This document shows positions 30,988-51,204 of a stretch of 64,000 bases of DNA, in pieces. The notes under the pieces were generated by a model that searched no databases, was not told where the DNA came from, and saw only the letters and a list, made by a program, of their open reading frames with translations. Every line of letters begins with the position of its first letter. Position 1 is the first letter of the stretch. The stretch covers positions 6,955,001 to 7,019,000 of the forward strand of contig NZ_LT629693.1 of assembly GCF_900099825.1 (NCBI RefSeq), in the 5' to 3' direction. Position numbers and translations under genes: made by a program. Origin of the DNA: Bradyrhizobium ottawaense. GTDB taxonomy: Bacteria > Pseudomonadota > Alphaproteobacteria > Rhizobiales > Xanthobacteraceae.

Positions 30988-31024
30988 AAAATAAAAGGCG
31001 CGACGGGATTGCTCCCGTCGCGCC
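30988..31024 (-). terminator. Strong intrinsic terminator of the 14-codon ORF transcript
   Basis: On the minus strand the 12-bp perfect stem GGCGCGACGGGA / TCCCGTCGCGCC has a GCAA tetraloop and is followed by TTTTATTTT. On the plus strand there is no T-run, so it acts for the minus-strand unit. Confidence 0.9.
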
Positions 31025-31118
31025 CCACTATTTGTGCTCGCTGGTCCAGGGCTGAGAGCGCCCCGATGCCAGACCTTCAAAACCTACAAGCCTTCAAAGC
31101 TAGTTGGCCTTGCAGAGC

Positions 31119-31163
31119 CTAGCGGGCGATCCCAGCGAGGTGACAGCGCTTGGTAAGAGACAC
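31119..31163 (-). CDS. 14-codon micro-ORF with full-length anti-SD match
   Basis: GTG at 31163 opens a 14-codon frame encoding (M)SLTKRCHLAGIAR, ending at TAG. It is preceded by AAAGGAGGTGATCC (31165-31178), complementary over 14 nt to the 16S rRNA 3' tail, with 7 nt between GGAGG and the start. A sigma70-like promoter lies 34-63 nt upstream of the start and a strong terminator about 95 nt downstream of the stop. The complete unit argues that it is expressed. The peptide contains a Cys and a His and is basic; its function is unknown. It could be a leader, a ribosome-sequestering RNA or a true micro-protein. Confidence 0.7.
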   Translation of the reverse strand: MSLTKRCHLAGIAR

Positions 31164-31164
31164 T

Positions 31165-31178
31165 GGATCACCTCCTTT
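31165..31178 (-). promoter_or_regulatory. Exceptionally long Shine-Dalgarno sequence
   Basis: AAAGGAGGTGATCC on the minus strand pairs without mismatch to GGATCACCTCCTTT, the bacterial 16S 3' end. Normal sites in this window pair over 4-7 nt. Confidence 0.85.
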
Positions 31179-31197
31179 CGTTGGTTGTGGAAACATC

Positions 31198-31226
31198 AAT
31201 ATAGGCGGCGAATCTGCCGCTGTTAA
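31198..31226 (-). promoter_or_regulatory. Sigma70-like promoter of the micro-ORF unit
   Basis: On the minus strand TTAACA (31221-31226) and TATATT (31198-31203) are separated by exactly 17 nt. The expected start near 31191 gives a leader of about 28 nt and a transcript of about 200 nt. Confidence 0.65.
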
Positions 31227-31334: not shown

Positions 31335-31408
31335 GCGGGTGTAGCTCAATGGTAGAGCAGCAGCCTTCCAAGCTGAATACGAGGGTTCGATTCCCTTCAC
31401 CCGCTCCA
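31335..31408 (+). tRNA. tRNA-Gly(TCC), integration target
   Basis: The acceptor GCGGGTG pairs with CACCCGC. The D-arm is AGCTCAATGGTAGAGC, anticodon loop CTTCCAA gives TCC (Gly, GGA/GGG) and CCA is encoded. Its 3' 44 nt recur exactly at 40961-41004 and with two changes at 55024-55067, so this gene is the attachment site of the islands that follow. Confidence 0.95.
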
Positions 31409-50096: not shown

Positions 50097-51200
50097 ATGC
50101 GAACCGCAATCTGCACCGTGTTTATGGTTTGCGGACTCGTGGTCCCGGCCGGTGCGCAACAGGCGCAACCGGCCGCCATTCCGGTCGGCGTCGTCAAGGC
50201 CGAACACAAGACGATCGAGAAGACACTCGATTTCGTCGGGCGAGTGGAAGCGGTTAATCGCGTCGAGATACGAGCGCGGGTACAGGGGTTCCTGGAAGCG
50301 GTGCTGTTCAAGGAGGGAGACCCGATCAAGGAAAATGATCCCCTCTATCGCATAGAGAAGGGGCTGTTCCAGGCAGCGGTCGAACAGGCGGACGGCGCCC
50401 TGGCACGCAGCAAGGCCTCGAAAGTGCTCACCGAAGCGCAACTCGGGCGGGCGGAGGACCTGCTGGCAAAGAACGCCGGGACGGCCGTTGCGCGGGATCA
50501 GGCGCTTGCCGCGGACGAGCAGGCGAAGGGCCAGATCATGAGCGACGAGGCCACCCTGCAGACCGCCAAAATCAATCTTGGCTATACCGACATCGTCGCG
50601 CCGGTTTCCGGACGGATCGGCCGCACCAACATCACCAAGGGCAATGTCGTCGGCCCCGACAGTGGCCCGCTCACCGTCGTCGTGAGCCAGGATCCGATGT
50701 ATGTGACGTTTCCGGTGAGCCAGCGCGATTTCCTGCGAGCGAAGGAGGACACTCACCAGGTCGACCTCAAGGCGATCAAGGCCAGGCTTCGCTTTGCCGA
50801 CGGCGCAACCTACGACCAAACCGGCCAGATCAATTTCGTCGACGTGACGGTTGATCGCGCCACCGACACTGTGCTGGTGCGCGCCACGTTCCCAAATCCG
50901 GCCGGCGGACTGACCGACGGCCAGTTGGTGCGGGTGGCGCTCGAAAGCGGCACGCCAAAGGAAATGGTCGTAGTTCCGCAATCGGCGCTGATCGCCGACC
51001 AGGAAGGCGTCTACGTCTTCGTGGTCGAGGACGGCAAAGCCGTTGTGAAGCGGATCAAACCCGGGGGCGAGAGCGGAACGGATACCGTTGTCCAGGAAGG
51101 CTTGTCCGGGAGCGAGCAGGTTATTGTCGAGGGATTGCAGGGGGTGCGCCCCGGTGCGCCGGTCAAGGCCAGCCCGGTGACAACGCTCAAAAGGAGCTGA
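50097..51200 (+). CDS. RND adaptor (AcrA/MexE-like)
   Basis: This 367-residue periplasmic adaptor has a signal peptide ([17 protein letters not shown]). Lipoyl halves are visible ([20 protein letters not shown] and [20 protein letters not shown]) with a helical hairpin between them and a beta-barrel domain. GGGAGG precedes the ATG at 50097. The pump gene starts 4 nt after its stop, so they form an operon. The family exports organic compounds and drugs. Confidence 0.92.
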
Positions 51201-51204
51201 TCCA

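Follow-up and report, generated by a model that had tools for sequence, protein, structure and literature searches.

An rreB ortholog of Bradyrhizobium ottawaense with extended 16S complementarity and a predicted self-closed initiation site

The minus strand of a 64,000-nt stretch of the Bradyrhizobium ottawaense genome (the window) carries the ortholog of rreB in this species, a unit whose core finding is already known. Comparison of the locus with its relatives at the level of sequence shows 17-nt complementarity to the 3′ end of 16S rRNA, a predicted fold, conserved among the copies, that pairs the ORF with the Shine–Dalgarno sequence (SD), the start codon and the tail, and a fixed ORF length. 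We favour, with a probability of about 0.6, a reading in which the rreB ortholog is a stand-alone structured small mRNA whose initiation is self-locked, opened by the 30S subunit and remodelled by translation, with the peptide mainly a by-product. The present analysis adds the confinement of variation to a loop, the predicted self-lock of SD and start codon, the covariation of stop codon and tail, the class-wide relatives, the link to the Rfam family CC2171 and the drifting ORFs held at constant length. Micro-ORFs are usually judged by the conservation of their peptide; here, conservation of the ORF and function of the peptide appear to be separable. The element also bears on why bacteria keep a 17-nt SD that is expected to hinder initiation.

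The unit is the rreB ortholog

The original prediction, made from the letters of the window, had named a promoter, an SD, a GTG-started ORF, a tail and a terminator on the minus strand, and all of these parts are found there (Table 1). The terminator with its T-run is present as described, but its stem comprises 14 pairs instead of the predicted 12 bp. The micro-ORF runs from GTG at 31163-31161 to TAG at 31121-31119, contains no Trp codons and shares the first base of its start codon with the last base of the SD (31163).

Table 1 Features of the rreB locus in window coordinates
Feature	Position	Strand	Basis
Promoter-like TTAACA-17-TATATT	31198..31226	-	Sequence scan; 34/39 copies, spacing 17
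17-nt extended SD, complementary to 16S 3′ end	31163..31179	-	Sequence match
Micro-ORF MSLTKRCHLAGIAR, GTG, 14 codons, TAG	31119..31163	-	14 codons in 39 copies
Helix 1 (predicted): SD GAGGUGA and start CAGUGU with GCGCUG-UCACCUC of codons 6-9	31137..31174	-	Predicted fold
Helix 2 (predicted): ORF 3′ half (31135-31124) with tail GGGCG-C-UCUCAG (31063-31052)	31052..31135	-	One-sided changes only
Helix 3 (predicted): ORF end including stop codon (31123-31116) with tail (31075-31068)	31068..31123	-	
Invariant tail element CCAGCGAG, complementary to ORF CTCGCTGG	31037..31044	-	Alignment and folding
Intrinsic terminator	30995..31026	-	14-pair stem and T-run; both-side changes at 3 stem pairs
tRNA-Gly(TCC), divergent, syntenic marker	31335..31405	+	At most 500 nt away in 38/39 copies

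rreB is reportedly a small stand-alone mRNA with a 14-aa ORF, a GTG start and a 17-nt SD, conserved in Bradyrhizobium. The locus has the 14-codon ORF with a GTG start, the 17-nt complementarity to the 16S 3′ end and an orthologous place in the genus (33 of 35 genomes, with the tRNA-Gly neighbour in 38 of 39 copies), and we see no essential difference from rreB. The suspicion that an equivalent micro-ORF may already be known in Bradyrhizobium was right, as we equate a 14-codon GTG ORF with a 17-nt SD in this genus with the rreB of Hahn et al. (2017, RNA Biol 14:1353).

A DNA search matched 39 of 60 genomes, own genome included; the unit was present in 33 of 35 other genomes of the genus, the two without a match being assemblies of 1000 and 710 contigs, and five of the 39 lie elsewhere in the order, in other families, where the match is short. 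Conservation in relatives, on which the prediction had staked itself, was borne out: the promoter hexamer pair is kept in 34 of 39 copies, every one at spacing 17, and the ORF and the terminator in all 39. Within a scanned 2-kb stretch neither signal taken alone exceeds chance (promoter, 1 match observed against 0.7 expected; terminator, 2 against 2.1), but both are conserved across the copies. The divergent tRNA-Gly(TCC) lies upstream in 38 copies. The exception, L026, occupies the same genome place as L037, where an insertion of about 2.3 kb (L037, ~395-2660) separates the rreB promoter from the SD, a natural case of promoter disruption in one Bradyrhizobium assembly.

The original prediction had also raised the possibility of a leader. 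rnTrpL and peTrpL are attenuator RNAs, small and terminator-ended, with a micro-ORF. Regulation of a downstream gene in cis, by a leader or attenuator on the pattern of rnTrpL, would suit the leader-peptide-plus-terminator layout of rreB, and among the 34 of 39 copies in which downstream genes were compared, 20 have a YCII gene downstream on the same strand. However, the YCII offset ranges from 252 to 1639 nt, a different, convergent gene lies downstream in 10 of the 34, and all 39 copies retain the terminator. With no fixed co-oriented neighbour we rejected the attenuator, and the leader idea as a whole finds no support and strikes us as highly improbable. The likeness to rnTrpL and to peTrpL, as a passage of PMC7298713 presents the latter, lies in the small terminator-ended RNA with a micro-ORF; unlike them, rreB has neither Trp codons nor a fixed downstream gene.

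The SD matches the 16S 3′ end over 17 nucleotides

The 14-nt core AAAGGAGGTGATCC lies at 31178-31165 on the minus strand. Complete pairing with the 16S 3′ end had been predicted and is confirmed, but the predicted 14 nt fell short: set against the antisense of the 16S end in L001, the locus matches the genome's own 16S 3′ end over 17 nt (GAAAGGAGGTGATCCAG, 31179-31163). The core occurs twice in the whole 8.34-Mb genome, once at the rreB locus and once antisense to the 16S 3′ end. The claim that the site goes far beyond any other in the window has to be softened for a 13/14 match at 51190-51203. That second site, AAAGGAGCTGATCC on the plus strand, sits one base upstream of an ATG; the 1051-aa ORF that begins there resembles, by eye, an RND transporter.

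The ORF is predicted to close its own initiation site

All 39 copies have a GTG start, a stop codon and an ORF of 14 codons. Codons 1-2 and 5-14 are invariant at every position, third positions included, and variation within the ORF is limited to codons 3-4 and to which stop codon is used. In the predicted fold, the SD and start codon pair with codons 6-9 (helix 1), and the variable codons 3-4 form the loop of this helix. Helix 1 is paired in 100% of cells and 12 of its 13 pairs never vary, so covariation is uninformative here; the predicted helix is backed by its folding energy and by where the variable codons fall. The remainder of the ORF is predicted to pair with the tail, across a loop between stop codon and tail that is longer in the B. 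ottawaense copy than in most others.

Covariation is found at the far end of the ORF. The stop codon covaries with the tail, TAA, TAG and TGA each being matched by tail changes, and 12 of 39 sequences carry a both-side change at one pair of helix 3. Over the 39 sequences the fold has 99.0% of cells paired, with 24 both-side-change cells (17 in helix 3, at the stop codon, and 7 in the terminator) against 8.1 ± 2.6 in shuffled data; none of 500 shuffles reached 24, and sliding the partners by 1-3 columns gave at most 6. The whole RNA is also more stable than its own shuffles (z −5.71, 0/200), with the terminator contributing in part.

The invariant tail element CCAGCGAG is complementary to the ORF segment CTCGCTGG, and their pairing is a possible alternative state, modelled about 5 kcal/mol above the best fold. 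We do not claim a two-state switch between ORF:SD and ORF:CCAGCGAG pairing: the alternative averages −49.0 kcal/mol versus −53.8, and it enters the best fold of just 3 of 39 copies with the SD blocked. Folding with the SD kept unpaired leaves helices 2 and 3 mostly in place, so that an exchange of one tail partner for another is not established.

When each locus is compared with shuffles of itself, self-complementarity of the SD ranks in the top 5% for 36 of 39 Bradyrhizobium loci, and for 23/52, 10/23 and 13/54 loci of three other groups; the lock was not found in sphingomonads, where 1 of 35 loci reached the top 5%. Against a reversed-SD control, the real SD pairs better in 39/39, 16/23, 41/52 and 48/54 loci, but in only 17/35 sphingomonads, and in Bradyrhizobium the reversed SD pairs nearly as well as the real one (−18.8 versus −19.6 kcal/mol, a mean gap of 0.8). 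Over 65 class loci, among them 10 of the 39 from Bradyrhizobium, SD-region pairing shows a modest rise (mean z 0.61). RNAalifold returned weaker consensus folds for the Rhodobacter (22 of 23 loci, L197 left out) and sphingomonad sets.

In relatives across the class, codons covary with spacer and tail

Within the class, 62 of 385 genomes carry the SD-and-start pattern, the B. ottawaense genome among them, against 1 match for a reversed control pattern; within the order, at least 163 of 397 genomes carry it. The places listed in the class search amount to a single locus in each genome when start readings that overlap are counted once, and the relatives include sphingomonads. From 249 loci gathered in the class and order searches and a scan of named genomes we compiled, among the matches listed, 234 unique loci. 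We left out L001 and L002, any locus duplicating another exactly over a 106-nt key, those with less than 115 nt downstream and loci with an off-pattern SD or start (for example L041; L058, which has no spacer; and L078 and L079, with a TTG start). ORFs of 14-27 codons are found in 217 of the 234, again among the matches listed: 14 codons in Bradyrhizobium, 18 in the Rhodobacter type, mostly 18 in a sphingomonad group (MSHGS...), and 20-27 in the MSHCH...TWI and MSSE...EQP types. The CC2171-like and MSSE groups were chosen by head letters and a length of 20-27. One record, L192 (SAR92), is probably spurious. Five loci (L047, L066, L100, L101 and L179) have an rre-type SD followed by ORFs of 55-59 aa with starts that by eye resemble signal peptides, and in such lineages the product may matter.

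The single base between SD and start (GATCC-N-start) is complemented in the ORF region in 35 of 195 non-Bradyrhizobium loci, against 19.0 ± 3.1 after permutation (maximum 30 in 2000); because the loci are related, the permutation tests are inflated and their figures are indicative, not probabilities. Within the ORFs alone, 34 matches are to the spacer base of the same locus, compared with 19 to any of the other three. The sequence AGGATC is found in 6 of 11 loci with spacer T versus 3 of 108 with spacer A, and the Trp, Arg or Gly at the spacer-paired codon tends to follow the pairing. Bradyrhizobium is itself an exception to this matching, with spacer A and codon GGG.

A second correspondence links codon 4 to the tail, taken as the 140 nt after the stop codon. 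Of the 83 loci with CAT at codon 3, 64 have a tail in which the complement of codon 4 precedes an ATG, whereas permutation gives 23.9 ± 3.6 such loci and never more than 38 in 5000 rounds; 34 of the 64 are GGT:ACC from essentially one lineage. The silent change of codon 4 to TGC is paired with GCA in 6 of 6 loci, and TGT has ACA in 20 of 29, the wobble partner GCA in 6 and neither in 3. Although the SD lock is absent from sphingomonads, their codons 3-4 do pair with the tail. Compared with shuffles of the same locus, head-tail complementarity reaches the top 5% in 20 of 52 CC2171-like and 5 of 35 sphingomonad loci and is near absent in the other four groups (0/39 in Bradyrhizobium, 1/23, 1/54 and 0/31). 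For the MSSE group, visual inspection had suggested a head-tail pairing that the shuffle test did not confirm. The correspondences between spacer base and mid-ORF codon, codon 4 and tail, and stop codon and tail offer testable covariation.

ORF length is kept while the peptide drifts

With groups set by head sequence alone, regardless of ORF length, exactly 18 codons are found in 33 of 35 sphingomonad and 22 of 22 Rhodobacter-type ORFs. Representatives at least 12 nt apart keep 18 codons in 7/7 and 11/11 cases, respectively, where random substitution would do so in 27% and 38% each under a null in which substitutions fall anywhere and structural constraint is ignored; at a distance of at least 16 nt the counts are 3/3 and 8/8. 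The ratio of nonsynonymous to synonymous changes (N/S) among single-base codon differences is 3.42 versus 2.60 expected in sphingomonads and 2.17 versus 2.61 in the Rhodobacter type, and third codon positions in these groups are no more variable than first and second positions. Since 18 codons are kept despite a near-neutral N/S, translation across a fixed distance seems to be under selection. The peptide sequence may hardly matter, with the proviso that purifying selection on the peptide can be masked where base pairing constrains third positions. In Bradyrhizobium itself, constraint on peptide and on RNA are inseparable because codons 5-14 are fixed at all positions.

A gene for a functional 14-aa basic peptide, its synthesis merely tuned by the extended SD, would account for the invariance of codons 5-14, of GTG and of a stop codon in 39 of 39 copies. 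Yet the third positions of codons 5-14 are equally invariant, and the free codons 3-4 change mostly by replacement, pairwise single-base differences from codon 4 onward being 38 nonsynonymous and 0 synonymous (at codon 3 silent differences also occur). The relatives' peptides, moreover, drift with N/S near or above neutral, and their residues tend to follow base pairing. We consider this reading unlikely and rank it first among the rivals. The idea that the RNA matters more than its peptide gains support on both counts, the RNA pairing covarying and the peptide drifting in relatives.

Second in our order comes a pure decoy, also put forward in the original prediction, in which the 17-nt pairing captures 30S subunits and translation is irrelevant. 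The length of the 16S match and the presence of one such locus per genome fit a 30S sponge, but the ORF is kept as an ORF of fixed length, ended by three types of stop codon, for which a decoy has no use, and for that reason we disfavour it. The SD is, moreover, predicted to be closed by the ORF, and a single locus would presumably need very high transcription to titrate ribosomes. A pure decoy is therefore not supported, and we give it little credence.

The preferred reading of rreB as a self-locked mRNA can be set out as a sequence of steps. At rest, the ORF would close the initiation site, and a 30S subunit would open it by pairing through its whole 16S 3′ tail. A ribosome reaching the fixed stop codon would then melt the helices between ORF and tail, which could alter the lifetime of the RNA or expose the tail. 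The rreB RNA might thereby report on, or hold, free 30S subunits, the peptide being mainly a by-product. rreB RNA is reported to co-sediment with 30S, to be translated weakly and to be stabilised when the start codon is removed; these properties fit the self-locked mRNA model.

Relationship to CC2171 and rreR

The Rfam model RF01867 (CC2171, a Caulobacter sRNA) aligns to the locus over its full length (1-159) with 54 bits and an E value of 7.7e-11, below the gathering score of 75. We call the locus a relative of RF01867, not a member by Rfam's rule, because of that score and because much of it comes from the shared head and terminator. The two are alike in their 5′ end (CAAC..GAAAGGAGGTGATCCAGTGTCT), length and terminator, but the middle of the alignment is poor, with many non-standard pairs. 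A head-tail helix of CC2171 (CAUUGUC with GACAAUG; codons 3-5 with a pre-terminator element) is present in the CC2171-like and sphingomonad groups and absent in Bradyrhizobium, where codon 3 is not CAT and 0 of 39 loci show excess head-tail complementarity in the top 5%. At E ≤ 0.001, RF01867 has matches in 93 of 199 order genomes, and in 14 of these the score exceeds the cut-off; of 14 control genomes it matches one, Caulobacter.

The RF01867 consensus starts with the same extended SD followed by GUG UCU CAU. By this resemblance CC2171 looks like the same kind of element as rreB, and a family filed as an sRNA appears to carry a ribosome-binding micro-ORF. One passage of the Rfam 15 description lists RF01867 among families with a revised structure (PMC11701678), and one of a Mesorhizobium survey gives a CC2171 match among sRNA candidates (PMC5596092). 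The literature we searched, with rreB's original paper outside that search, held no description of the SD lock, the sphingomonad form or the CC2171 micro-ORF.

The filing of RF01867 by Rfam as an sRNA, and the conserved tail, speak for a trans-acting base-pairing sRNA with an incidental ORF; CCCTGGACCAGCGAG, the nearly invariant tail, would then serve as its seed. Such an RNA leaves unexplained both the 17-nt SD one base before the start codon and the fixed ORF length; it is third in our order, at long odds.

The Rhodobacter lineage reportedly has its own counterpart, rreR. It shares the extended SD with rreB, and its group holds 18 codons in 22 of 22 loci, but it differs in ORF and fold, the rreR start region being paired with AUUGGA. 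More tentatively, and at somewhat less than even odds, we propose that rreB, rreR, CC2171 and the 18-codon form of sphingomonads are versions of a single RNA device, found class-wide in Alphaproteobacteria at one copy per genome, a sensor of free or mature 30S subunits. The whole free 16S 3′ tail would serve as its key, and the ORF would be kept for its base pairing and for the fixed distance that ribosomes translate, rather than for its peptide.

Of 20 relatives scanned with RF01867, two reach its threshold, L069 and L072. These two loci and L102 seem to have a similar gene just downstream of the rre terminator, with a frame reading ..DADxCPVK.. that resembles the UPF0178/YaiI family.
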